This document shows, piece by piece, positions 15,358-52,904 of a DNA stretch of 64,000 bases; within the stretch, counting starts at the first letter, position 1, and every line of letters starts with the position of its first letter. The position numbers and the translations under genes were made by a program. Source of the DNA: Nitrospirota bacterium (GTDB lineage Bacteria; Nitrospirota; Nitrospiria; Nitrospirales; Nitrospiraceae); NCBI GenBank assembly GCA_002737345.1, contig NSIK01000012.1, forward strand, positions 53-64,052, read 5' to 3'. The notes below the pieces were generated by a model, which was not told where the DNA came from, did not search any database, and saw only the letters and a list, made by a program, of their open reading frames with translations.

Positions 15358-17091
15358 CTACGATCCGGTTGGCGCCACGATCCGGAACCGGACTTCATCC
15401 ACAAGAGTATCGCTGGACGCCTGCTCTCCTGCGAACAAGCCACAGCGGTAGAGGCCTGTGGCCCATCCAGTGGCAGGAGGGGCGAGCAGGAAATAGCCGG
15501 ACTGGTCGTTCATGGTTGTCATCACGTGGTCCTGTGCGATGGCGCGTGGCGCTCCCGTGATCCCTGATGTCTCAGGCGAACAGTGTGCTGTAAGGGGTAC
15601 CGCATCGTACGAGGACGACACCAGCCTGAAGACCAGGTAGATCTCTTTCTGCGAAGGGGGGAAGCTATCCCCTGGGTAGAGAGGAATAAATTCATGGGCT
15701 CCGGTGGGGAAATCGTCTCGCACGACTTTTCCAGCGGGGATGACAAATCGAAACCAGCTGAAGTCGGCATCCCGGCCCATAAGCGAGGCCTGTTGGTCTA
15801 GGGGGTTCTGAGGTTTCAGCTGCGCCAGGGCCTTCGCGAACAGGTCTTCCTCCGCAAGGGCTGAGGCAGAGGCGGGAGTGCTGGATGGGACTGAGTTCGC
15901 AGCTTCATCTGTCAGGCGCGCCAATTCTGGAACATGGGGCCGTACCTTCTCGAGCCATCGGGCGATCTTCTGTTTGTCGAGCATCCTGGTGTCCGGCGGG
16001 AGCTGGGTGTTCTTATTCTGTGTTTCAAATTCGACCGCCGCCTCATAGAGGATGTGGAAATGCACGAAGGCCTCTTCCCACTGTTTTAGGTCGACGAGAC
16101 ATTGGCCCATTCGAAAGACCGTATCCGCATAGTCTTCGTCGCTGGGATTCAGGTCAGATATCTTGCCGAAGACCGTCAGGGCCTCCTTGCACCGGCTTAG
16201 CTGCATGAGGGTCAGCCCTAATTGGTGATTGGCAAGGGGGTCGTTGGGGTTGAGCACCAGCAGCCGTCGATAGATCGGTTCGGCCTCCTGGTAGTGACCA
16301 ATTGAGAAGAGTCGCCAGGCCTCTGCGCGAATGGCGGCCCATTCCTTTCGCTGCGCCGCGGTCATGTCGCGCGAGAGGACCGGGTCGAAACGCCGGCCTC
16401 GATCGATGGAGGTGCCGCGGATTTGCGAAAGCAGATTCTTGGCAGGGAGCTCCAGTGGAGAGTCGGGCGGCAGCTGGTGCAGCACATATTGCACGGCAGC
16501 TTCCGCGCCTTGGTAGTTGAGAAGGTCAAATCTCGCTCGGGCCAATGATAATCGCCAGCCGAGCATATCCGGAACGAGTTCGATGGCTGCAGCATAGAAC
16601 GCGAGCGATTCTTCCAGGCGATCGAGCTTTCGGAGTTCGTGCGCAAGCCGTAAATGGATCAAGGGATTTCGAATATCGATTTGGGCCATGCGCTGGAGCT
16701 CGGCGATGGATTCGTCTTCCTGACCCCACCGAGTCAGCACGCTCCACTTGGCCCATCGGACATCCAATGCAGCCGGGTTTCCGGCCAGCGCCAGGTCATA
16801 GGCCGCCACTGCCGCTTGAGGGTCTCGGGCTGTGGCCAGAATATCACCGCGTAATTTGTAGAGCGTCAGCGCGGGTGGGTAATCGTGAATTCCCTGGTCG
16901 AGGATCTCGACGGCTGGCTGCAGCGCGCCGCTCTCCCAGAGGGCTTTCGCCCGCTCTGCCAGGGCCGTTTCCGGATGAGTCTGTGGGGCCTCCGCCGATG
17001 CGAGAGCTCCCATCGTCAACGTTGCCGCACATGCGAGGCTCAGGAGCCTGGCGAGGGGACGGCCTTGTGGTCGGACGGCAGTGTGTTGCAT
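15358..17091 (-). CDS. Periplasmic TPR-repeat protein
   Basis: A signal peptide (LLSLACAATLTMGALASAEA) is followed by several TPR units: two near residues 45-120, more at 130-200, and a cluster at 270-370 including GHYQEAEPIYRRLLVLNP. A C-terminal region of about 150 residues is rich in beta strands (FSWFRFVIPAGKVVRDDFP, IYLVFRLVSSSYD) and is not TPR. The ATG at 17091 gives a clean signal sequence; the frame is open to 17181. It probably scaffolds an envelope complex. It diverges from trmL. Confidence 0.75.
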   Translation of the reverse strand: MQHTAVRPQGRPLARLLSLACAATLTMGALASAEAPQTHPETALAERAKALWESGALQPAVEILDQGIHDYPPALTLYKLRGDILATARDPQAAVAAYDLALAGNPAALDVRWAKWSVLTRWGQEDESIAELQRMAQIDIRNPLIHLRLAHELRKLDRLEESLAFYAAAIELVPDMLGWRLSLARARFDLLNYQGAEAAVQYVLHQLPPDSPLELPAKNLLSQIRGTSIDRGRRFDPVLSRDMTAAQRKEWAAIRAEAWRLFSIGHYQEAEPIYRRLLVLNPNDPLANHQLGLTLMQLSRCKEALTVFGKISDLNPSDEDYADTVFRMGQCLVDLKQWEEAFVHFHILYEAAVEFETQNKNTQLPPDTRMLDKQKIARWLEKVRPHVPELARLTDEAANSVPSSTPASASALAEEDLFAKALAQLKPQNPLDQQASLMGRDADFSWFRFVIPAGKVVRDDFPTGAHEFIPLYPGDSFPPSQKEIYLVFRLVSSSYDAVPLTAHCSPETSGITGAPRAIAQDHVMTTMNDQSGYFLLAPPATGWATGLYRCGLFAGEQASSDTLVDEVRFRIVAPTGS

Positions 17092-17186
17092 GTGCGCGGG
17101 CAACGTTGTGAGGTCACCTGCTACTATACCAAGAAGCCGGGCGATAATGAAATGGACTGTCGCGTCCATGTTACACTGCACATCCC

Positions 17187-17660
17187 ATGTTCGACGTCAT
17201 TCTGTACCAGCCTGAAATCCCGCCGAACACCGGCAACATTATCCGGCTCTGCGCCAATACCGGGGCCAGGCTGCATCTGGTGAAGCCTTTGGGGTTTACG
17301 CTGGAGGACAAGCAGTTACTGCGAGCGGGACTGGACTATCACGAATTCGCCACGATCACGGTGTATGAAAGCTGGGCCGAATGCGCCGACCGATTCAAGG
17401 ATCGCCGCCTCTTTGCCATTTCGACCAAAGGCACGCAACGGCATGATTTGGTCGAGTATGTTGCCGGCGATGCCTTTGTGTTCGGGCCTGAGAGCCGCGG
17501 GTTGCCGCCAGAGATTCTGGAGCTGGCGGCAGGGCCGCAATGCATTCGAATCCCCATGGTTCCTGGAAACCGGAGCCTCAATCTGTCCAATGCCGTCGCG
17601 GTGGTGGTCTATGAAGCCTGGCGTCAGCTGGGGTTTAGTGCGGGGCCGAAGAGTGGATAG
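17187..17660 (+). CDS. trmL: tRNA (cytidine/uridine(34)-2'-O)-methyltransferase TrmL
   Basis: This SPOUT-class enzyme methylates the wobble ribose of tRNA-Leu using SAM. It starts FDVILYQPEIPPNTGNIIRLCANTG, contains the family signature FGPESRGLP, and ends with the trefoil-knot segment MVPGNRSLNLSNAVAVVVYEA. The 157 aa match the minimal SPOUT length. It stands alone between divergent and convergent neighbours. Confidence 0.95.
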   Translation: MFDVILYQPEIPPNTGNIIRLCANTGARLHLVKPLGFTLEDKQLLRAGLDYHEFATITVYESWAECADRFKDRRLFAISTKGTQRHDLVEYVAGDAFVFGPESRGLPPEILELAAGPQCIRIPMVPGNRSLNLSNAVAVVVYEAWRQLGFSAGPKSG

Positions 17661-17750: not shown

Positions 17751-18650
17751 CTAGACATCTTCCTCCTTTAAACAGCGCCCGAGTCCCTGTTGCTCGGCAA
17801 AATAATAGGCATAGTGCAGCGCGGCAAGGTTGGCGATGCGTTCTTCGGCCTCGTCGCGCGTGTCCGCATAAATAACCTGGATGCCATACCTCGCCGTGAG
17901 CGAGTCCAGAAAATCGATCAGCCCAATTTTGTGGTACTGGTTGAGACGCCCGCCAGCCTTGCGATGCTGGAGCGTGCCTTCGACGACGAGGAAGCGCGAA
18001 GGGAAGGCGAGGACCTGTTCGAGTTCCTGGAGAAAGGGCAGGCGGTTGTAAGAGGGATTTGAAAAGACCGTATAGAGGTCTTCGACGCTGATGCGTTTGA
18101 TACACAAGAGCTCGGGGACTTCCGCAATGGCATAGCCCTTGACTGGCAATGTTTCGCGCATCGTTCCGGCAATGCGCACGAATCCATGAAAGTCGTAGGG
18201 CTGGTGCTCGCGCGGGTCGACGTAGAGGTGAATAGCCGGTACCATGGCTTTGGGCTGGTTTTGCTGGGAGAGTAGCATGATGAGCGATTGCGGGCCGCGA
18301 GGCCCGTGGCTGGCTTGCGCGTTCTGCTGCGCGCGGGGCGGGGTGCTCGAATAGGTGCCGGACGAGGGATTCGCTGTGGGGGCCGGTCGCGCGGCCGGCT
18401 TCTGAGAAGCCGTGGGTTGCGTCTTGGCATCGTAGCTGGCCCGTGCCGCCGAGTCGCTGAGGGTTTGATAGGCCTGGTTCAGCAGTTGTGTCCGGGTTTC
18501 CGCTTTCTTGTGCAGGGCCGGGGCATGGCCAAAGCGATCCGGATGCCAGACCTGGACCTGTTCATGCCAGGCTTTTTTGATTTCCGCGTCCGTGGCGGTG
18601 GGCAAAAGTTCCAGCAGCGTATAGTAATTGATGATCCGTTCCTCCCGCAT
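17751..18650 (-). CDS. J-domain protein fused to an ERCC4-like nuclease domain
   Basis: Residues 7-75 form a DnaJ-type J domain with the HPD motif at 36-38, the Hsp70-stimulating loop. A Pro/Ala/Ser/Gln-rich linker spans about 77-135. Residues 138-275 follow the XPF/MUS81 (ERCC4) layout: VDPRE at 144-148 with PYDF after it, then a hydrophobic strand, the ISVEDL segment at 187-192, FLVVEG and an RYGIQVIYADTRDEAEERIA end. The catalytic GD before the strand is KG (171-172) and ERK is KRI (185-187), so nuclease activity is doubtful. It may be a DNA-binding cochaperone. No partner gene is adjacent. Confidence 0.75.
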   Translation of the reverse strand: MREERIINYYTLLELLPTATDAEIKKAWHEQVQVWHPDRFGHAPALHKKAETRTQLLNQAYQTLSDSAARASYDAKTQPTASQKPAARPAPTANPSSGTYSSTPPRAQQNAQASHGPRGPQSLIMLLSQQNQPKAMVPAIHLYVDPREHQPYDFHGFVRIAGTMRETLPVKGYAIAEVPELLCIKRISVEDLYTVFSNPSYNRLPFLQELEQVLAFPSRFLVVEGTLQHRKAGGRLNQYHKIGLIDFLDSLTARYGIQVIYADTRDEAEERIANLAALHYAYYFAEQQGLGRCLKEEDV

Positions 18651-18821
18651 CGGTTTCTCCTCTGGACGAAGTGTAACGGAGTACTCATCGGAGATCTAGC
18701 GAGCGGTGCCGCAATAGATCTGATAGATACGCGGGGCGGTTGCAGTAAGCTCGCTGCCAGCTCGTTCGTGCCGGCAGTGGATAGATTCATTCCGTAAGCC
18801 CAGCCCTCAGCACACCATAAT

Positions 18822-20645: not shown

Positions 20646-20682
20646 ATTGCTATTAGCAATTATAAATGCTAAACGTTTGGCA
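20646..20682 (+). promoter_or_regulatory. Two palindromes at the promoter of the molybdate operon
   Basis: ATTGCT-ATT-AGCAAT (20646-20660) is a perfect 6-bp inverted repeat. TATAAA (20661-20666) follows at once and could be a -10 box. TGCTAAACGTTTGGCA (20667-20682) is a palindrome with 7 of 8 pairs, ending on the A of the regulator's ATG. They are good candidates for autoregulatory operators of the HTH protein encoded next. Confidence 0.5.
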
Positions 20683-21854
20683 TGGGACAGGCACATAAAG
20701 CGGAATCCGTCGAACATTTTCAGAATCATCTGAAAGATCTCCGCCTCGCTCACAGTTTTTCCCAGGGTCAGCTTGCCGGAAAATCCGGAATCACTCGGCA
20801 GGCCATATCTGCCATCGAATCGCATCTCTATTTACCCACGACGGCGGTTGCGCTTCGGCTGGCGGCGGCCCTGGGCTGTCGCGTGGAAGATCTCTTCAGC
20901 TTGGCAGAGGCGCAGGAAGTCATTGGAGGGAGACTGGTCGGTCATTTGCCTCGCCGGGATGAGAAGATTTCAACGGTGCGTGTGAAGGTCGCGAGGGTCG
21001 GGGCTCGTCTGATCGTGCGGCCCGTCACGGAACTGGGCGAGGTCCTCGCCTATAGTGTGCCGGCCGATGGGTATGCCACGGATGTGCAGGGCCAGGAGTC
21101 CGGCGCCACGGTGAGCGTGACGTTGTCGCGTAGCCGTCAGGCAGTCGAACAGGAAATTTTCGTCGCAGGCTGCGATCCCGCGATCTTTCTCGCCGGCGCG
21201 CATTTGCGGCAGGGGCAGGGCCAGACTTCCATTGTCGGTTGGACTATGGGGAGTATGGCGGCGTTGCGGGCCTTGCAGCAGGGCGAGGTGCATGTTGCCG
21301 GGCTGCATCTCTTCGACCCGACCACCGGGGAATCGAACCTGCCCTTTCTGAGACGGGCGCTGAAGAGTGTGCACTACGACGTCGTGACGTTTGCAACCTG
21401 GGAGGAAGGGTTCCTTGTCCAGCCAGGCAATCCCAAATCTATCCGCACGATCGCTGATGTGGCAGATCCGCTTGTGACCCTCGTGAATCGCGAAGAGGGG
21501 GCGGGCGCCAGGCTCATGCTTGATCAGAGGCTGCGGGCAGCGGGGATCGACTCGGCTCAGGTGCGCGGGTATGAGCATACGGTGCCGTCCCATTTCGAAG
21601 TGGCCCGAGCTATTGCCAGCCACCACGCCGACGTCGGGGTCGGCATCCGATCCGCCGCGCAACTCTTCGGCCTCGATTTTGTGCCGCTGCAAGCCGCCAG
21701 ATACGATCTCGTGGTTCCTAAAGCCTATCTGAAGTCCCATCCGACATTGGCCCACCTGTTCGACACCATTGTCAGCCGTTCCTTTCGCGCGGAGATCGAC
21801 GCGCTCGGGGGCTATGACACCACGAGTACGGGAATGGTCCATTCATTAGCATGA
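20682..21854 (+). CDS. HTH regulator with substrate-binding domain (molybdate-responsive candidate)
   Basis: Residues about 12-68 form an XRE-type helix-turn-helix (HLKDLRLAHSFSQGQLAGKSGITRQAISAIE). Residues about 85-385 are a periplasmic-binding-protein-like domain (PBP_like_2 type) with VSVTLSRSRQ, AGCDPAIFLAGAHL and a C-terminal AVGIRSAAQLFGLDFVPL. Such fusions are cytoplasmic repressors or activators that bind an oxyanion ligand. It heads a run of overlapping genes leading to modABC, and its stop overlaps the next ATG, so molybdate or tungstate is the likely ligand (inference from context). Confidence 0.85.
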   Translation: MGQAHKAESVEHFQNHLKDLRLAHSFSQGQLAGKSGITRQAISAIESHLYLPTTAVALRLAAALGCRVEDLFSLAEAQEVIGGRLVGHLPRRDEKISTVRVKVARVGARLIVRPVTELGEVLAYSVPADGYATDVQGQESGATVSVTLSRSRQAVEQEIFVAGCDPAIFLAGAHLRQGQGQTSIVGWTMGSMAALRALQQGEVHVAGLHLFDPTTGESNLPFLRRALKSVHYDVVTFATWEEGFLVQPGNPKSIRTIADVADPLVTLVNREEGAGARLMLDQRLRAAGIDSAQVRGYEHTVPSHFEVARAIASHHADVGVGIRSAAQLFGLDFVPLQAARYDLVVPKAYLKSHPTLAHLFDTIVSRSFRAEIDALGGYDTTSTGMVHSLA

Positions 21855-22681
21855 GGCTGGCGATGCGCAGGCAGCAGGATGTGTGGCCGTTATTTTTTTT
21901 GATTTTCTTATTGGTGAGCCCTGTTGTGAGCCGGGCTGAATCGCTGTTGATCCTGGCTTCCCCTTCCGTCCAGATCCCGCTTGAGGGTCTGGCGCGCGCA
22001 TTCGAGGCGATACATCCGGCTGTGTCGGTGGAGCTCGCATTCGAACGGGGATTCGATTTGAGACGGACCATTGCGCAAGTGGAGAACAGGGGAGTGCTGG
22101 CCGCCGAGGCGCGTCCAATCCATCTTGTCGCGCCTGGCGACGACGAGTTAGTCACGAGGCTTGCGCAGAAACAGTATGTGTGGTCGGAGACCAGGACTCC
22201 CTATGCCACGCGCCAACTCGTGCTCGTGGTTCCGGAATCGCTCGTGGATGCTCCGACCTCATTTGCCTCGTTGGCGCTGGACTCTCGCTGGCGAATTGCC
22301 GTGGCAGATCCTCTGGTCACCGAGCTGGGGCTGGAGACGGCTGCCTGCCTGGAATCGTTGGGGATTGCCGTGGCCGTGGCTGATCGTCGAGCGGTCGCGG
22401 GAGATGCCCGTGGCGTCTTGGATCGCGTGTTGAGAGGCGACGCCGATATGGGGATTTTGTTCGGGCCCGATGCCCTACAGGAGCAAGAACATATTCGCGT
22501 GGCAGCGGTGGCGCCGGAAGCCCACCATCATCCGCGCATCTATTCAATGGCCATGGTACGAAGCTGCCCCGATCGCATGCTCTGCAGAGATTTTCTCTCG
22601 TTCGTGTATACGCTGCCGGCTCAGGCGCTCTTGAAACAGTTGGGCTATGGCATTCCCCAGGAGGCTTTCGCCCGTGAATAA
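21851..22681 (+). CDS. Divergent ModA-like periplasmic binding protein
   Basis: A signal peptide (FFLIFLLVSPVVSRA) precedes SLLILASPSVQIPLEGLARAFEAIHP, which matches the start of ModA proteins but lacks the AASDL oxyanion loop. Later ModA-type landmarks remain: TRQLVLVVPES, ALDSRWRIAVADP and DADMGILFGPDAL. At 276 aa the length suits a type 2 binding protein. With an ordinary ModA in the same operon, this second copy may bind another anion such as tungstate or act as a sensor; this is inference. Confidence 0.75.
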   Translation: MRLAMRRQQDVWPLFFLIFLLVSPVVSRAESLLILASPSVQIPLEGLARAFEAIHPAVSVELAFERGFDLRRTIAQVENRGVLAAEARPIHLVAPGDDELVTRLAQKQYVWSETRTPYATRQLVLVVPESLVDAPTSFASLALDSRWRIAVADPLVTELGLETAACLESLGIAVAVADRRAVAGDARGVLDRVLRGDADMGILFGPDALQEQEHIRVAAVAPEAHHHPRIYSMAMVRSCPDRMLCRDFLSFVYTLPAQALLKQLGYGIPQEAFARE

Positions 22682-23324
22682 GTGGCTCGCCATGTTCGGT
22701 GCCTTTGTCATCCTGGCCCTGGCAGCCGGTTGTGCCAGGCTGCCGTACGATACGATGGCGGTCGAGGAGCAGGAGCGTTTGCTGGTGACGCTTCAGCAGG
22801 AAGTCGCGCCGGCCGGCTACGCCCATCCGGTTCAGGTGACTGCGGCCGATGCGGCCGCCATCCTCCGGGGATTTTCTGTCCGTCCCCAGCGGGCTCTGCC
22901 CCTTCGGTGGTATGCAGAAGATAATCCGCCGAAGCCCCTGTTTCGGGAGGATGAGATCAGCCTCTTGGCGCCTGCGTTGAGTCGGGCCCTACGCCTGGCC
23001 GGGCCGGATGAGCGGGTGCGGTTTGAACTGCGCGCGCCCGGGCTGAACTCTGCGGCGAGTCGCGATGTCACGGTCGGCTGGGTGGCGGTTCGGGAGCCCT
23101 ATTGGTATGTCACCGTCGAACAGGTTCATGCGCAGGCTCCCCTCAGAAAGTCTGACCAGTACGATTACAATTTTCCCACGCCGCCACCCTTGCCCGACTC
23201 CTTCCTTCTGTATTTTGAGCCAGGACGTTATTGGGGGGCCGATCGGTCGGGCACGGCTCGAGGGTTAGACTATCGTGCGTTCCTCAAGTCCGCCATCGTG
23301 CCGACGGGAGGAACGGCACGATGA
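22674..23324 (+). CDS. Lipoprotein, paralogue of the one at 8333
   Basis: GTG 22674 is chosen because AGGAGG (22659-22664) sits 9 nt upstream; an ATG at 22647 is also in frame. The signal ends in the lipobox LALAAGC. A core block, AHPVQVTAADAAAILRGFSV with LFREDEISLLAPAL and then GPDERVRFEL, matches the 8333-9040 lipoprotein. It lies between the binding protein and the porin, overlapping both by a few bases, so it probably belongs to the outer-membrane step of uptake. Function unknown. Confidence 0.75.
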   Translation: MNKWLAMFGAFVILALAAGCARLPYDTMAVEEQERLLVTLQQEVAPAGYAHPVQVTAADAAAILRGFSVRPQRALPLRWYAEDNPPKPLFREDEISLLAPALSRALRLAGPDERVRFELRAPGLNSAASRDVTVGWVAVREPYWYVTVEQVHAQAPLRKSDQYDYNFPTPPPLPDSFLLYFEPGRYWGADRSGTARGLDYRAFLKSAIVPTGGTAR

Positions 23325-24979
23325 GCAGCCTGTTGCGTCTCTGTGCCGTCATGATGGTGTCCCTGGTCTGGGGGTCTGCCTTGTGGGCGGCGGAGTCAGG
23401 CCGATTGGTGGAGAAAGACGGCAAGTATGTGTTTGTCGAAAGCATGGATCCTGCCACCCAGCTGCTGCTCGAACGGGCGGTGAAGCAGGGGACGATCAGC
23501 CAAGAGGAATTCAATCGTGTGGCGCAGGAGTCCGAGCGGAGAGCCTATCTCCTCCAGCCGAGTTACAGGCTCTGGTATGATCGTGGCTTTAATATCTCGC
23601 TGAACGACAACGCCTTCCTGCTCAAAATCCGCGCCCGGTTCATGGGCCGCATGACGAGTCGTGTTCGCAATGATGCCTGGCGGAACCCGGGCGATGCGAA
23701 GAATTTTCCAGAATTGCTCGGCGTCTTCGGGGACTATCGGGCCAGCCGGTCGGACAACGAGTCCACTCAGTTCAATCTCCGCCGCGCGCGGCTGTATTTC
23801 ATGGGGCATCTTTTCAATCCTGATTTTAAATACTATATCCAGCTCCGTGGTGAAACGGCCGAGAACGCGCAGTCGCCCGGCTCACTCCAGCTGTTCGATT
23901 GGTTCTTCACCAGCACCCATGTGCCGGCCCTCAACGTCCAGTTCGGCCAGTATAAGGTCTATTTCAATCGCGCCCAGATCAACTCGACGGCGTCGATGCA
24001 GTTCGCCGAGCGGGCTCTTGTGATGGATGCCTTTACTGGCAGCGGGCTCGATCGGCGGGATATCGGACTTACGCTGATGAACGACGACGAGCTCTACCCG
24101 GTGAACTATTACCTGGGGGTCTTCAACGGAGCCGGGCCGAACTTCAATCGGCTGGGGTCCTTTACCAGCGAGCAGCCGACGGAAGGTTGCCCCGCTGGCG
24201 TCAGTGTGGCGGGTTGTGATACCGCTCAGCGAAACATCAATTCTAACGTCCGGATGGATCTCAGTAAGCTGATGTTCGCAGGCCGGCTCATGTGGAACAT
24301 CATGGGGCGACCAGGCTATGGCGAAGGGGACCTCGTCTATTCCGAGACCCCACAAATGGCAATTGCCGGAGGCTATGCCTACAATCCCAGCATCAATACC
24401 AGTTCCAATAACGCTTTTATCGGGATCGACTTGGGGAACCTGAACTATCGGCGGCAGTTGGCCGCCTTCGGGAATGGCAGACAGCTTGGCTGGGGCGTCG
24501 TCGATTACTCGACCTGGGCCCTGGACTATGTGCTGAAGTATCGGGGTTTCTCCTTTCAAACGGAATACTATTTCAAGAATGTGACGCGCCATAATAAGGG
24601 GGTTCCTTGTATGAATACCGCGTGCACATCAGTGGCGTCCGCTTTGCTGGGTAATGCGCAGGGCTGGTACGGGCAGTCCGGTTATTTTCTGGTGCCGAAA
24701 AAGTTGGAGCTGGCCGCTCGCTATGCCTACTGGGATCCAGATACCAATGCGGCCGACGATCTCGTGAAAGAAGCGAATGTGGCCCTTACCTACTATGTAA
24801 ACGGAAATTACGATCAGACGATTACGGTGCAATATTCTAATACCGCCATGGGGACTGGGGGCTATGCCATCGCCCGAAGTGCGCCCTTGCCGACCGAGTT
24901 CGGCACGGTGCCGCTGGATGCGCGTGGCGGGACCTTGATTGAAAATGCGATTCGGCTCCAATATCAAATATTCTTCTGA
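23321..24979 (+). CDS. Outer-membrane porin, phosphate-selective porin (OprO/OprP)-like
   Basis: A signal peptide (LCAVMMVSLVWGSALWAAESG) is followed by a short helical segment (EFNRVAQESERRAYLL) and a long beta-barrel region. Alternating strands include FNLRRARLYFMGHLFNPDFKYYIQL and VPALNVQFGQYKVYFNRAQ, typical of Porin_O_P, and the chain ends in Phe (QYQIFF). The 552 aa suit this family. ATG 23321 overlaps the lipoprotein stop; longer upstream frames add non-signal sequence. Within a molybdate operon it probably admits oxyanions through the outer membrane (inference). Confidence 0.85.
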   Translation: MSSLLRLCAVMMVSLVWGSALWAAESGRLVEKDGKYVFVESMDPATQLLLERAVKQGTISQEEFNRVAQESERRAYLLQPSYRLWYDRGFNISLNDNAFLLKIRARFMGRMTSRVRNDAWRNPGDAKNFPELLGVFGDYRASRSDNESTQFNLRRARLYFMGHLFNPDFKYYIQLRGETAENAQSPGSLQLFDWFFTSTHVPALNVQFGQYKVYFNRAQINSTASMQFAERALVMDAFTGSGLDRRDIGLTLMNDDELYPVNYYLGVFNGAGPNFNRLGSFTSEQPTEGCPAGVSVAGCDTAQRNINSNVRMDLSKLMFAGRLMWNIMGRPGYGEGDLVYSETPQMAIAGGYAYNPSINTSSNNAFIGIDLGNLNYRRQLAAFGNGRQLGWGVVDYSTWALDYVLKYRGFSFQTEYYFKNVTRHNKGVPCMNTACTSVASALLGNAQGWYGQSGYFLVPKKLELAARYAYWDPDTNAADDLVKEANVALTYYVNGNYDQTITVQYSNTAMGTGGYAIARSAPLPTEFGTVPLDARGGTLIENAIRLQYQIFF

Positions 24980-24987
24980 GGCCTGCG

Positions 24988-25770
24988 ATGAAACAGCTGG
25001 TTCGTTCGCTTTTGCTCATAGTTTTGTTAGCGTGGATCGGTCCGTCCTCGGCTGGAGCGGCCCGCGAGATCACTGTGGCTGCAGCGTCGGACTTGAGCTT
25101 TGCGTTTAAGGAAATCACGGCTCTGTTTGAACAGACCACGGGCACCCATGTGAAGTTGTCGCTTGGTTCATCCGGGAATTTCTTCTCGCAGATCCAGAAC
25201 GGCGCGCCCTACGATCTCTATTTTTCGGCGGATAGCCGCTACCCGCACAAACTGGTCGAGAGTGGCCATGCGGTGGCGTCGTCTCTCTATATCTATGCAG
25301 TCGGGCGCATCGTCCTGTGGGTGCCCACGTTATCGGCATTGCAGATCGAACAGCGAGGCTTAGAGGTGTTGCTCGATCCGACTGTGAAGAAAATTGCCAT
25401 TGCCAATCCCAAACATGCTCCGTATGGCAGAGCGGCGGTGGCGGCGATGGAGCGGGCCCTGCTCTACGATCGCGCCAAAGACAGGCTGGTGCTGGGCGAG
25501 AATGTTTCGCAAGCGGCGCAGTTCGTGGAGTCTGGCGCGGCGGATATTGGAATCATTGCCTTATCCTTGGCCCTGGCGCCGCCGATGCAAGCAGCCGGGC
25601 GCTACAAGGAAATTCCTGCTGAGGCCCATCCTCCCTTGGTGCAAGGGGCCGCCCTGTTAGCTGGAGCCTCGCATCCAGTCGAGGCACAGGCCTTCCTGTC
25701 GTTTCTCCAAAGTACGGAGGGTCGGGCCATCATGACGCGCTATGGTTTCGTGGTTCCGGACAAACGGTAA
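24988..25770 (+). CDS. modA: Molybdate ABC transporter substrate-binding protein ModA
   Basis: A signal peptide ending AGAAREI precedes the classic ModA opening VAAASDLSFAFKEI and SLGSSGNFFSQIQNGAPYDLYFSAD, the oxyanion-binding Ser and loop. ModA captures molybdate or tungstate in the periplasm. The 260 aa are normal. It follows the porin by 8 bp and precedes modB closely. Confidence 0.93.
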   Translation: MKQLVRSLLLIVLLAWIGPSSAGAAREITVAAASDLSFAFKEITALFEQTTGTHVKLSLGSSGNFFSQIQNGAPYDLYFSADSRYPHKLVESGHAVASSLYIYAVGRIVLWVPTLSALQIEQRGLEVLLDPTVKKIAIANPKHAPYGRAAVAAMERALLYDRAKDRLVLGENVSQAAQFVESGAADIGIIALSLALAPPMQAAGRYKEIPAEAHPPLVQGAALLAGASHPVEAQAFLSFLQSTEGRAIMTRYGFVVPDKR

Positions 25771-25777
25771 CGATCAG

Positions 25778-26452
25778 ATGAATTGGATTGCCATCGGAGT
25801 CACCGTCAAGCTCGCAGCCCTGACCTCGCTCTTATTGCTGGGCATCGGGGTAGGGATTGCCTATTGGCTGAGCTTTTCTCGCTGGCGCTGGAAGTTTCTT
25901 GTCGAGTCGATCGTCGCGCTTCCGCTGGTGCTGCCGCCGACTGTGTTGGGTTTTTATATTTTGGTCGCGATCGGCCCTCACAGCCCAGTCGGTCGATTCT
26001 ATGCGGATCTTGTAGGCCATGCGCTGCCCTTTACCTTTGAAGGGCTGCTGTTTGCCTCGATCCTCTATAGTCTGCCGTTTGCGGTTCAGCCGTTCGCGGC
26101 GGCGTTCGATCAAGTGGATCGGCGTCTGATTGAAGCCTCTTGGACCTTGGGGGCGTCGAAGCTTCAGACTTTCTTCAAGCTCATTCTGCCGCTCTCGATC
26201 ACCGGAGTTATCACCGGCGTCGTCTTGAGCTTTGCCCATACGTTAGGTGAGTTCGGCGTCGTGCTGATGGTTGGGGGCAACATTGAAGGGGAAACGCGGA
26301 CGGTCTCAATCGATATTTACGATGAGGTGCAGGTGCTCAATTATGCGGGGGCCGCAAAGACGGCATTCTTTCTTCTCGTGGTCTCCTATCTGGTGTTGCT
26401 TTGTGTTTACGCGATGAACCGAAAGGTCTGGGCAGTATGGCCGCAACGCTAA
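25778..26452 (+). CDS. modB: Molybdate ABC transporter permease ModB
   Basis: The inner-membrane channel, with five or six hydrophobic segments. It has the family start MNWIAIGVTVKLAALTS and the EAA loop IEASWTLGASKLQTFFKLILPLS that docks on ModC. ATG 25778 starts at that conserved region; the frame is open from 25742 but that leader overlaps modA. 224 aa. Confidence 0.93.
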   Translation: MNWIAIGVTVKLAALTSLLLLGIGVGIAYWLSFSRWRWKFLVESIVALPLVLPPTVLGFYILVAIGPHSPVGRFYADLVGHALPFTFEGLLFASILYSLPFAVQPFAAAFDQVDRRLIEASWTLGASKLQTFFKLILPLSITGVITGVVLSFAHTLGEFGVVLMVGGNIEGETRTVSIDIYDEVQVLNYAGAAKTAFFLLVVSYLVLLCVYAMNRKVWAVWPQR

Positions 26453-27531
26453 GCCTTGACTGCCGGAAAACATTTCCCCGCGGGCTCACGGTCTCCGTGC
26501 AGCTAGAGCTTCCGCTCGATCCTCCATTGGTTCTGATCCTGTTTGGTCCCTCTGGTTCAGGTAAAACGACGGTCCTCCGTTGCTTGGCTGGACTCGAACA
26601 GCCGGAGGAGGGGACGATCCGGTTTGGGCAGGATCTCTGGGTCGATGCCGCGCGCCGTCAGGTTGTGCCGCCGCAAGCGCGCCACCTTGGCTATATGCCG
26701 CAGGACTATGCCTTGTTTCCGACCCATACCGTGACGGGCAATATCGAGTATGGGCTGAGTGACTTGCCGCAGGCTGAGCGGCGCAGGCGGGTGAGCGAGG
26801 CGCTGGCCTTGCTGCAACTCCAGGGATTGGAGCAGTCGAAGCCCCGCCAGTTGTCCGGGGGCCAGCAGCAGCGCGTAGCGTTGGCCCGCGCGATTGCCCG
26901 CCAGCCGCAGCTATTGCTATTGGATGAGCCATTGTCGGCCTTGGATGCTCCGACCCGAGGTGCACTCTGTAGCGAGCTCCGCTCCTTGCTCACCAGGTTG
27001 AAAATCCCGACCGTCGTCGTCACCCATGATTGGACGGAAGCCCTGACGCTGGGTGATCGCATTGCCGTCATGAGTGAGGGCAAGATACTGCAGGTTGGTG
27101 TTCCTCAGGAGGTATTTTCTCGACCGGCCAATGAATCAGTAGCGCAGATTGTGGGAGTCGAGACGGTCGTGCAGGGGCAGGTCAGCGACTCTGCACATGG
27201 GCTTGCCACGGTTCAGGTCAACGGCATAGCCATGAAGGCCCTGGCGGTGGACGAGATTGGCCCATCGGTCTATGTCTGTATCCGTGCCGAAGATGTGGTG
27301 CTGGAACAGGCGGGGAGCGGTATGACCAGCGCCAGGAACCATCTTGCGGGGCGGGTGGACGCCATCGATCCCCGGGGCGTGATGGTGCAGGTGAAGATTG
27401 ACTGCGGCTTTCCGCTTACGGCGGTGATCACGCGGGGGGCTGTTGAGGAGTTGCGTCTGGCGCCAGGCGCCCCCGTCATCGCGGCGATTAAGGCCGGATC
27501 TGTGCACCTGGTGTCTCGTTCAGTTGTTTGA
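26437..27531 (+). CDS. modC: Molybdate ABC transporter ATP-binding protein ModC
   Basis: The ATPase of the uptake system. Walker A is GPSGSGKTT, the ABC signature LSGGQQQRVALARA, and Walker B LLLLDEPLSALD. Residues about 235-364 form a TOBE/Mop-like domain (HLAGRVDAIDPRGVMVQVKIDCGFPLTAVIT) that binds molybdate and gives feedback control. ATG 26437 overlaps the modB end by 16 bp. This is the last gene of the seven-gene operon. Confidence 0.93.
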   Translation: MAATLSLDCRKTFPRGLTVSVQLELPLDPPLVLILFGPSGSGKTTVLRCLAGLEQPEEGTIRFGQDLWVDAARRQVVPPQARHLGYMPQDYALFPTHTVTGNIEYGLSDLPQAERRRRVSEALALLQLQGLEQSKPRQLSGGQQQRVALARAIARQPQLLLLDEPLSALDAPTRGALCSELRSLLTRLKIPTVVVTHDWTEALTLGDRIAVMSEGKILQVGVPQEVFSRPANESVAQIVGVETVVQGQVSDSAHGLATVQVNGIAMKALAVDEIGPSVYVCIRAEDVVLEQAGSGMTSARNHLAGRVDAIDPRGVMVQVKIDCGFPLTAVITRGAVEELRLAPGAPVIAAIKAGSVHLVSRSVV

Positions 27532-49788: not shown

Positions 49789-50910
49789 CTACTCGAAGTG
49801 GGATTTCATCTTATCGAAGAAGCCGTCGCCACCTTCGTCCATCGTCATGCCGCTTTCTTTGGCGAATTCCGTGAGCAATTCTTTCTGACGGGCAGTCAGT
49901 TTGGTGGGGATCTGAATTTTGATGACGAATAGCTGATCGCCGGTGCTTTGGATCTTGAGGCTGGGAATGCCCAGGCCCTTGAGTCGGAGAATCTTGTCCT
50001 GTTGCGTGCCGGCAGGAATCTTGATGACCGTATTGCCTTTCAGTGTAGGGACTTCGATTTTTCCTCCGAGCACGGCTGTGACGAAATTGACCGGGACGTC
50101 GCAGAGGATGTCGTGACCTTGACGCTGAAAGACCGGGTGAGGCTTGACGGTAATCGCCACATAGAGATCGCCTGGCGGACCCGCATTGACTCCGTGCTCC
50201 CCTTCGTTGGAGAGGCGCAGGCGCATACCTGATTCGATGCCGGCCGGGATGTGGACCGCGATGGTCCGTTCCCGATAGGTGCGCTGACGGCCCTGGCAAG
50301 CGCCGCAGGGCTCTGTGACGATCCGTCCCGCCCCTTCGCATTGGCCGCAGGGACGGCTGATGCTGAAGAAGCCCTGCTGGAACCGCATCTGGCCGGCCCC
50401 TTTGCAGCTGGGGCAGGTCTTGATCGCGGCGGCGCTCTTGGCGCCGGATCCTTTACAGTCAGAGCAGACTTCCCAGCGCGGGATTTTCAGCTTGGCATCT
50501 TTTCCGTAGACGGATTCTTCAAAGGTCAGCTCGAGGTTGTACTGGAGATCGTTGCCTCGCTCTGCTCGATTACCGCCACGCTGGCCCCCGAAAAAATCTT
50601 CGAAGATGTCGTTGAAGGCGTCACCGAAGCCGCCGCCACGCCCGAATCCCTCAGGTCCAGGACCCTGCTGGCCGCCCGCGTGGCCGAACATGTCGTAGCG
50701 TTTGCGTTTTTCCTGATCGTTCAGTGTCTCGTAGGCTTCGTTGACCTCTTTGAACTTTTCTTCCGATACTTTTTTCTCCGCCTCTCCGGTCTGGAGATCA
50801 GGGTGGTGCTGGCGGGCCATCTTGCGATAGGCCTTCTTCAGTTCGTCGTCGGAGGCGGTTCGTTCGACGCCTAAGGTTTCGTAGTAATCGCGCTTGGACA
50901 CGGCTGCCAT
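49789..50910 (-). CDS. dnaJ: Chaperone DnaJ
   Basis: Hsp40 cochaperone of DnaK. It has an N-terminal J domain (HPD in ARQHHPDLQ), a Gly/Phe-rich linker, four zinc-binding repeats (CSDCKGSG, CPSCKGAG, CGQCEGAG and CGACQGRQ) and a C-terminal substrate-binding half. 373 aa is full-length. It follows dnaK by 74 bp. Confidence 0.97.
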   Translation of the reverse strand: MAAVSKRDYYETLGVERTASDDELKKAYRKMARQHHPDLQTGEAEKKVSEEKFKEVNEAYETLNDQEKRKRYDMFGHAGGQQGPGPEGFGRGGGFGDAFNDIFEDFFGGQRGGNRAERGNDLQYNLELTFEESVYGKDAKLKIPRWEVCSDCKGSGAKSAAAIKTCPSCKGAGQMRFQQGFFSISRPCGQCEGAGRIVTEPCGACQGRQRTYRERTIAVHIPAGIESGMRLRLSNEGEHGVNAGPPGDLYVAITVKPHPVFQRQGHDILCDVPVNFVTAVLGGKIEVPTLKGNTVIKIPAGTQQDKILRLKGLGIPSLKIQSTGDQLFVIKIQIPTKLTARQKELLTEFAKESGMTMDEGGDGFFDKMKSHFE

Positions 50911-50984: not shown

Positions 50985-52904
50985 TTACTTTTTCTCTTTG
51001 TCTACTTCTTCGAATTCTGCGTCGACGACCTTTTCGTCCGTCTTGGTCTCGCCCGCTCCGTCTCCCGCACTGGCGCCAGCGTCCGGTGCTGCCGAGGCGG
51101 AGGCCGCCTTGTACATTTCTTCCGCCAGCTTATGGGAGGCGGTGGTCAAGGCCTGGGTGGCGGACTCGATCGCGTCCGGGTCCGTGCCTTCCATCGCTTT
51201 CTTCAGCGCGGCGACGGCTTCCTCAACTTTGGTCTTGTCTTCTGCGGCGATCTTGTCGCCGTATTCGCTCAGGTTCTTTTCCGTCTGGTAGATCAGTGTG
51301 TCGGCCTGGTTTTTGGCCTCGGCGGTTTTCCGCCGCTTCTTATCGTCGTCCGTATGGGCCTGGGCATCCTTCACCAGCTTCTCAACTTCTTCTTTGCTCA
51401 AGCCGCCGGAGGCCGTGATCTTGATGGACTGTTCCTTCTGCGTAGCCAAGTCTTTGGCCGAGACATGGACGATGCCATTGGCATCGATGTCGAACGTCAC
51501 TTCGACTTGCGGCATCCCGCGCGGGGCGGGAGGCAAACCGACTAGGTCGAACTGGCCAAGGAGCTTGTTGTCGTTCGCCATTTCGCGCTCGCCCTGGAAC
51601 ACGCGAATGGTCACGGCCGTTTGATTGTCCGCCGCCGTCGAGAATACCTGGCTCTTCTTCGTCGGAACGGTCGTGTTCCGCTCGATTAACTTCGTGAAGA
51701 CACCGCCGAGGGTTTCGATACCCAGCGAAAGAGGCGTCACGTCGAGGAGTAGGACGTCTTTGACTTCGCCTTTGAGCACGCCGCCTTGAATGCCGGCGCC
51801 GATCGCCACTACTTCGTCGGGGTTCACGCCGCGATGCGGCTCTTTGCCGAAGAATTCTTTGACGGCCTGAATAACTTTCGGCATGCGAGTCATGCCGCCG
51901 ACGAGGACGACTTCATTGATGTCGCGCGCGGAGACTCCGGCGTCAGAGAGCGCCTTCTTGCAGGGCTCGATCGACCGTTTGATCAGGTCGTCGACCAACT
52001 GCTCCAGCTTCGCGCGGGTCAGTTTGATAACCAGGTGCTTGGGTCCGCTGGCATCGGCTGTGATGAAGGGCAGATTGATCTCGGTGTCCTGCGATGAGGA
52101 GAGTTCGATCTTGGCCCGCTCCGCCGCTTCTTTCAGACGCTGGAGAGCCATCCGATCCTTACGGAGATCGATGCCCTGATCCTTCTTGAATTCATCGACC
52201 AACCAGTCCATGACGCGCTGGTCGAAGTCGTCGCCGCCGAGATAGGTATCGCCGTTGGTTGACTTGACTTCGAACACGCCGTCGCCGATCTCCAGGATGG
52301 AGACGTCGAAGGTGCCGCCGCCCAAATCGTAGACGGCAACCCGCTCGTCTTTCTTTTTGTCTAGACCGTAGGCGAGGGCCGCGGCCGTCGGTTCGTTGAT
52401 AATCCGGAGGACGGTCAAGCCTGCGACCTGGCCTGCATCTTTGGTGGCCTGACGCTGGCTGTCGTCGAAATAGGCCGGGACGGTGATGACCGCTTCGGTG
52501 ACTTTTTCTCCGAGATAGTCTTCGGCGGTTTGCCGCATCTTTTGCAGAATCATGGCGGAGATTTCCGGCGGACTGTAGCGCTTGCCGCGCAACTCGACAT
52601 AGGCATCGCCGTTCTCGCCATCGAGCACTTTGTAGGGCAGCCGCTTGCCTGCGTCGGTGACTTGCTGGCTGTTGAACTTGCGGCCCATGAGTCGCTTCAC
52701 GGAGAAAATCGTGTTCTCCGGATTCGTAATGGCCTGGCGTTTTGCAATCTGCCCGACGAGGCGCTCGCCCTTTTCGGTAATAGCGACAACAGACGGGGTC
52801 GTGCGGGCTCCTTCTGAGTTGGCGATCACAATCGGTTCACCGCCGCTCATGATCGAAACACAGGAGTTTGTCGTTCCAAGATCGATGCCGATCACTTTAC
52901 CCAT
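50985..52904 (-). CDS. dnaK: Chaperone DnaK (Hsp70)
   Basis: ATPase domain with [31 protein letters not shown] and [15 protein letters not shown]. The substrate domain follows, and the C-terminal acidic tail ends [10 protein letters not shown]. 639 aa. Works with GrpE upstream and DnaJ downstream in the same operon. Confidence 0.98.

Follow-up and report, generated by a model that had tools for sequence, protein, structure and literature searches.

The window (the whole 64,000-nucleotide stretch of Nitrospirota DNA that was analysed) contains a gene for a predicted J-domain protein that ends in an ERCC4 (XPF-type nuclease) fold, an architecture of which its domain matches and modelled structure leave us nearly certain. 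Judging from the residues at the metal site, the nuclease is very probably dead in the clade to which this protein belongs. For its present role we lean slightly towards a nuclease domain turned docking module. The gene, its parts and its conserved neighbours are:

17751..18650, minus strand: J-domain/ERCC4 fusion gene, an intact open reading frame with an ATG start (299 amino acids plus stop)
18657..18663, minus strand: AGAGGAG, Shine-Dalgarno-like, 5' of the fusion ATG (direct reading)
18429..18629, minus strand: J domain, residues 8-74 (PF00226 DnaJ, 2.7e-15)
18537..18545, minus strand: HPD, residues 36-38, present in 77/77 distinct full-length copies
18234..18425, minus strand: variable linker rich in Pro, Ala, Ser and Gln, residues 76-139; RGP at 118-120 is invariant in 77 copies
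17820..18233, minus strand: predicted ERCC4 (XPF-type nuclease) fold, residues 140-277 (Pfam, predicted model and profile comparison)
18207..18221, minus strand: VDPRE, residues 144-148; Asp145 is kept in 76/77 copies
18135..18140, minus strand: KG, residues 171-172, replacing GD (sequence reading and copy alignment)
18090..18098, minus strand: KRI, residues 185-187, replacing ERK; residue 185 is Lys in 27/28 copies of the catalytically dead clade
17976..17993, minus strand: FLVVEG, residues 220-225; EG (224-225) is found in 77/77 copies
17790..17948, minus strand: helix-strand-helix element, residues 235-287 (copy alignment and predicted model)
17754..17789, minus strand: C-terminal tail, residues 288-299, common to stand-alone nucleases
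17187..17660, plus strand: SpoU-family methylase (Pfam), a convergent conserved neighbour at 34/71 loci
15358..17181, minus strand: TPR protein (Pfam), a conserved neighbour at 44/71 loci

No match to a sigma-70-type promoter was found for the fusion gene.

The Pfam ERCC4 model (PF02732) matches residues 144-275 of the fusion protein over its whole length at 8.8e-5, with 22.9 bits against a cut-off of 24; in the genome-wide search the same domain scored 24.8 bits, above the cut-off. Three other fusions match at 3.7e-10 to 1e-8. Comparison of a profile built exclusively from 19 catalytically dead Nitrospira sequences with one built from 13 stand-alone ERCC4 proteins aligned 156 columns, reaching the last residue (probability 99.6, E 4.3e-24). 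A full-length AlphaFold model (mean pLDDT 56.6) left the first ERCC4 strands unmodelled and was replaced by a model of residues 113-299, made from 41 alignment rows (pLDDT 84, pTM 0.80). The latter leans on intact relatives, as phage rows were added to its alignment, and is thus not fully independent evidence, whereas the profile comparison is. In a Foldseek search with this model, the top PDB match was the nuclease domain of P. furiosus Hef (1j22; E 3.7e-6, TM 0.76 by target length), followed by A. pernix XPF, Mus81-Eme1 and XPF-ERCC1, with the ERCC1 and FAAP24 domains ranked lower. Matches in a viral structure library were ERCC4 proteins of giant and archaeal viruses. The preliminary description of this DNA had proposed an HPD J domain joined by a linker to an ERCC4-like domain, and had named structure prediction against ERCC4 as a check. 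Pfam, the profile comparison and the predicted fold, with Hef nuclease as its closest PDB structure, confirm that proposal, and HPD, VDPRE, KG, KRI and FLVVEG all lie where they had been read.

Searches of PDB sequences with the window domain alone found no ERCC4 chain. Four benzoylformate decarboxylase chains, all matching at one stretch at E 0.6-0.7, were rejected. The dead-clade profile likewise found no ERCC4 chain in the PDB, its matches being two designed barrels at E about 1; a wider profile that included phage relatives (A2) matched 1j22 at 2.5e-12. An (HhH)2 domain has no Pfam match in the fusion protein, where 12 residues follow the last long helix.

The J domain matches J domains in the PDB, including those of DNAJB8 (3.2e-9) and DnaJ. 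The C-terminal and zinc-finger domains of DnaJ are absent, as Pfam identified DnaJ, ERCC4 and two chance-level matches (0.42 and 0.82). The protein is presumably of the class C type, J-domain proteins without the DnaJ C-terminal domains. With its J domain and HPD intact it would be expected to stimulate DnaK, and we consider it quite likely to be a DnaK cochaperone. A dnaJ gene (373 aa, 49789-50910) and a dnaK gene (639 aa, 50985-52904), named by reading, lie on the same strand about 31 kb from the fusion and encode the likely Hsp70 partner within the window. Another J protein, at the genus level (L176 605-1867, minus strand; 420 aa), has by reading a transmembrane-like stretch and Sel1-like repeats; its J domain closely resembles the one in the fusion (matches of about 1e-25).

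The fusion recurs in other genomes, where the preliminary description had suggested looking for it, and its orthologues are not without J domains. Alignments spanning positions 12 to 285 of the query gave 123 full-length loci, 77 of them distinct; an earlier selection step kept alignments of at least 280 aa. The HPD J domain was identified in all 77 distinct full-length Nitrospiraceae (f1) copies, a count that is no test for J-less copies because both halves were required for inclusion, and in the three copies opened from the sister family f3. Motif counts leave out truncated and frameshifted copies, such as L036, L048, L053/L016, L061, L064 and L066. GD is present in 49/77 copies, and 40/77 retain both GD and the Glu of ERK. 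The form GDXnERRX3E occurs in 26/77 and GDXnERKX3E in 8/77; the full GDXnERKX3D motif was found in 0/77 fusions. The three opened f3 copies have GDY, with ERK in two (L178 and L179) and ERQ in one (L199). Versions with intact residues, which the preliminary description had wished to see sought, are thus common. Its claim that catalytic residues had been lost is correct for the window protein and does not extend to the family, where loss falls mainly in one clade (28/77).

In quick tree searches, run with the motif columns left in, the presence or absence of GD needs at least three changes. A single clade of 28 (support 99) contains 27 of the 28 GD-less copies; the remaining one is placed elsewhere. 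The two sets of 28 differ by one member each: the dead clade holds L133 (GD, KCL) and not L140, and the GD-less set holds L140 and not L133. When a stand-alone nuclease outgroup was included, the three f3 copies branched first, with moderate basal support (79-85). Because the outgroup and the three f3 copies carry GD, its presence is taken as ancestral and its absence as derived.

Both the GD Asp and the ERK Glu are Mg2+ ligands in A. pernix XPF (PMC3905867). The equivalent positions in the window protein are Gly172 and Lys185. At residue 172, 27/28 copies of the dead clade have Gly, Ser or Asn, and the former metal-binding Glu at 185 has become Lys in the same proportion; loss of the site is therefore old and not drift in one genome. 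Positions 186-188 form a basic stretch, R[RK]R, that hardly varies among the 49 copies outside the dead clade; within that clade, 13/28 copies retain Arg186 and none has a basic residue at 187 or 188. Human FANCM, described as lacking nuclease activity, has CDXnERRX3E, with K-to-R and D-to-E changes (PMC3905867). The D-to-E change at the last position is by itself no proof of inactivity, because 26/36 phage relatives also lack Asp there. Judged by motif, many copies of the family are in a FANCM-like state, and those of the window protein's clade in an ERCC1/FAAP24-like one. Copies with GD and ER[RK] could conceivably be true nucleases under the control of their J domain, the window's clade having kept a side function only. 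The 40 copies with GD and Glu, and the GDY and ERK of L178 and L179, fit this explanation; however, most GD/Glu copies read ERRX3E and so carry changes reported in inactive FANCM (PMC3905867), and we think it unlikely.

Purifying selection on the dead domain is strong. Median pairwise dN/dS among GD-less copies is 0.109 for ERCC4, 0.115 for the J domain and 0.339 for the linker (residues 76-135), and 0.118 for ERCC4 in GD copies (268/378 pairs among 28 GD-less copies and 413/1176 pairs among 49 GD copies, with overall pS of 0.1-0.6). The dead ERCC4 domain is thus constrained as strongly as the J domain, and as strongly as its counterpart in GD copies, so it still has some function. Within the dead clade, 62/138 ERCC4 positions are invariant. 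Across the 77 copies there is a modest excess of invariant positions in the helix-strand-helix element (15/53, versus 19/95 in residues 140-234). This element makes up the dimer surface of the nuclease domains in XPF-ERCC1 (PMC7048804). The retention of Asp145 of VDxRE in nearly every copy counts against a pure scaffold, though this residue may be structural.

The ERCC4 half matched in 90/235 genomes of the order Nitrospirales, 85 of them in Nitrospiraceae and four in f3; a weak f2 match (4.9e-6, one genome) was set aside, leaving 89/235, some of which are fragments (for example, G318 has 36 aa and G462 has 31 aa, and the matches in G378 and G220 are pieces at contig ends). With 85 matching genomes against 175 in the family, about half of the Nitrospiraceae are without this half, and the fusion is therefore dispensable or replaceable. 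Its absence from so many genomes, together with broken or remnant copies in G135 and G314, could indicate a decaying gene heading for loss. That explanation is contradicted by the dN/dS of about 0.11 in the GD-less set and by the invariant positions of the dead clade, and we find it scarcely credible. The G135 fusion (L053 5575-6631, the same copy as L016) is split into two overlapping frames of 229 and 335 aa by a frameshift or an assembly error. In G314, a second fusion copy survives on contig C7 (13938-14199) as a remnant interrupted by in-frame stops, and the intact copy is on contig C65. Two fusion copies that differ from each other (L038 and L040) occur on two short contigs of one Nitrospira lenta MAG, a finding that may reflect mixed strains or duplication.

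The search for fusions covered the window's phylum and one genome-contig scan for close relatives. The scan recovered 32 loci. One is labelled Gaiellales (L066), and all the others carry the label Nitrospira, Nitrospiraceae, Nitrospirota or Nitrospirae. Over 185-191 residues the L066 fusion fragment shows 80-82% identity with Nitrospiraceae copies, and its contig is probably misbinned. Across the phylum, Pfam ERCC4 matches were found in 52/395 genomes. The proteins opened outside f1 and f3 are either stand-alone (L186; L067-L069) or have another architecture (L180-L184). The latter, from other families of the phylum, are 357-376 aa long with a common N-terminal part and a C-terminal extension, and they keep GDY and ERK. 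L185, also outside f1 and f3, proved to be a false match, and a weak match in G178, below the cut-off and by reading in a GGDEF-like protein, was dropped.

Neighbours were counted over 71 loci, some of which are too short to show neighbours and some of which may represent one genome twice. The four neighbours scanned with Pfam were the methylase (which we take to be TrmL-like), the TPR protein, a GPR1/FUN34/YaaH protein and a PNPOx protein; there was no repair gene or defence gene among them. In the 10 fusion-less genomes examined, out of 12 selected, the 1.5 kb flanking the TrmL-like gene contained no fusion remnant. We read the fusion as an old chromosomal gene at a partly conserved locus, and not as a recent mobile insertion. 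Elsewhere in the window (20682-27531) are genes that, by reading only, encode an XRE-type regulator carrying a PBP-like domain, a porin, substrate-binding proteins and a molybdate/tungstate-type ABC transporter.

Sequence comparison shows the ERCC4 half to be homologous to small GDY/ERK nucleases of phages, a plasmid and other Nitrospirota. Stand-alone relatives were identified in 36 IMG/VR phage contigs, two Halorubrum tailed viruses and one conjugative Rhodoferax plasmid; the plasmid copy and one Nitrospirota copy share 63% identity. GDY and ERK are intact in 36/36 phage contigs, a count that favours GDY because the contig scan used the pattern DYSIEGME. The f3 fusion L179 matches phrog_3490 at 1.7e-7, and the window protein does not match it at 0.01. 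The fusion itself was not confirmed in viral contigs by any of 21 matches to two patterns, both taken from the J domain, and among phages and plasmids no record spanned 80% of the query. Probably the ERCC4 half was captured from such a stand-alone nuclease gene. The simplest account would be that a J domain acquired a mobile nuclease in the ancestor shared by f1 and f3.

Relatives of the parent family in phages, viruses and a plasmid, and the conservation of the dimer element, would suit a domesticated decoy: ERCC4 nucleases arriving with phages or plasmids would pair with the dead domain and be passed to DnaK. Selection on the domain is instead strongly purifying, unlike the divergence of an arms race. 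PADLOC found nothing for the window protein, a weak restriction-enzyme match (3.5e-4) being obtained for the f3 fusion L179, and the scanned neighbours include no defence gene; a decoy is thus highly improbable.

We suggest that the protein acts as a J-domain cochaperone encoded by a single gene and lacking the C-terminal client domains of DnaJ. Loss of the metal site in the window's clade, read from sequence, most likely means that DNA is no longer cut, and the ERCC4 half may serve as a pseudonuclease that forms dimers and docks DnaK on a particular partner. By analogy, the likeliest partner would belong to replication or repair, either as a protein or as a DNA structure, and a DNA-repair partner in particular is proposed tentatively. 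An arrangement like that of XPF-ERCC1, with one dead and one live subunit, found no support: the genome-wide Pfam search identified no second ERCC4 gene in the window's own genome, and each of the 42 Nitrospiraceae genomes with a match (among 395 genomes searched) has one only. An active partner could be missed because the window's genome is 91.55% complete, and divergent partners because Pfam at E 0.001 misses some known fusions (for example those of G135, G197 and G214).

Docking on a protein is ranked above direct binding of DNA. A cochaperone targeted to DNA junctions, with the dead ERCC4 domain binding branched or damaged DNA and the J domain bringing DnaK to strip or remodel proteins, would have precedents in SV40 large T antigen and CbpA, DNA-binding proteins that carry J domains. 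ERCC4 proteins act at DNA junctions, and Hef, A. pernix XPF and Mus81-Eme1 are the best fold matches. Nevertheless, the fusion lacks an (HhH)2 match, and in the window's clade the metal ligands are gone and the basic R[RK]R stretch is reduced. Net charge over residues 140-299 is -5 in the window protein, -6.4 on average in its clade and -1 in one stand-alone relative; no repair gene was found among the four scanned neighbours; and PMC3905867 reports the FANCM-FAAP24 nuclease domains to be without detectable DNA binding. Direct targeting to junctions is therefore rather doubtful. The most elaborate form of the docking-module reading, that a J domain captured a mobile ERCC4 nuclease that was decommissioned stepwise and is now a homodimeric adaptor bringing DnaK to branched DNA or a repair complex, is improbable as a whole. 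Its steps would have been ERK to ERR, a change also reported in FANCM, and, in one clade, loss of the metal-binding acids with Glu changed to Lys, giving an ERCC1/FAAP24-like state. If true, it would mean chaperone-driven clearing of proteins from bacterial DNA junctions.

Among known systems, the fusion shares its predicted fold, VDxRE and the VEG strand with the XPF/MUS81/Hef nucleases (PF02732). It differs from them in the loss of GD and ERK in the window's clade, in having no (HhH)2 or helicase match and in its fused J domain; where the XPF/MUS81 family has the site GDXnERKX3D, the window protein has KG and KRI. The phage nuclease of phrog_3490, a small ERCC4-type protein, is homologous across the whole domain and tail, and unlike the fusion it stands alone with GDY and ERK intact. 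ERCC1, EME1, FAAP24 and the nuclease domain of FANCM also keep the fold and have lost the catalytic motif, a state that is here under constraint, and the GD/ERR fusion copies resemble the CDXnERRX3E reported for FANCM (PMC3905867). In contrast to these proteins, the fusion is bacterial, is joined to a J domain and has no (HhH)2 match, and no catalytic partner gene was found. A J domain/ERCC4 pairing was not identified among the matches listed from the open-licence literature, and domain-architecture databases may hold it unremarked; within the literature searched, a link between Hsp70 and an XPF-type fold is thus without a match. ERCC4 pseudoenzymes are known mainly from eukaryotic repair complexes. 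Here, one bacterial order holds a natural series in which the J domain persists while the nuclease half ranges from GDY/ERK to fully dead, and the making of a pseudoenzyme becomes testable with natural orthologues.
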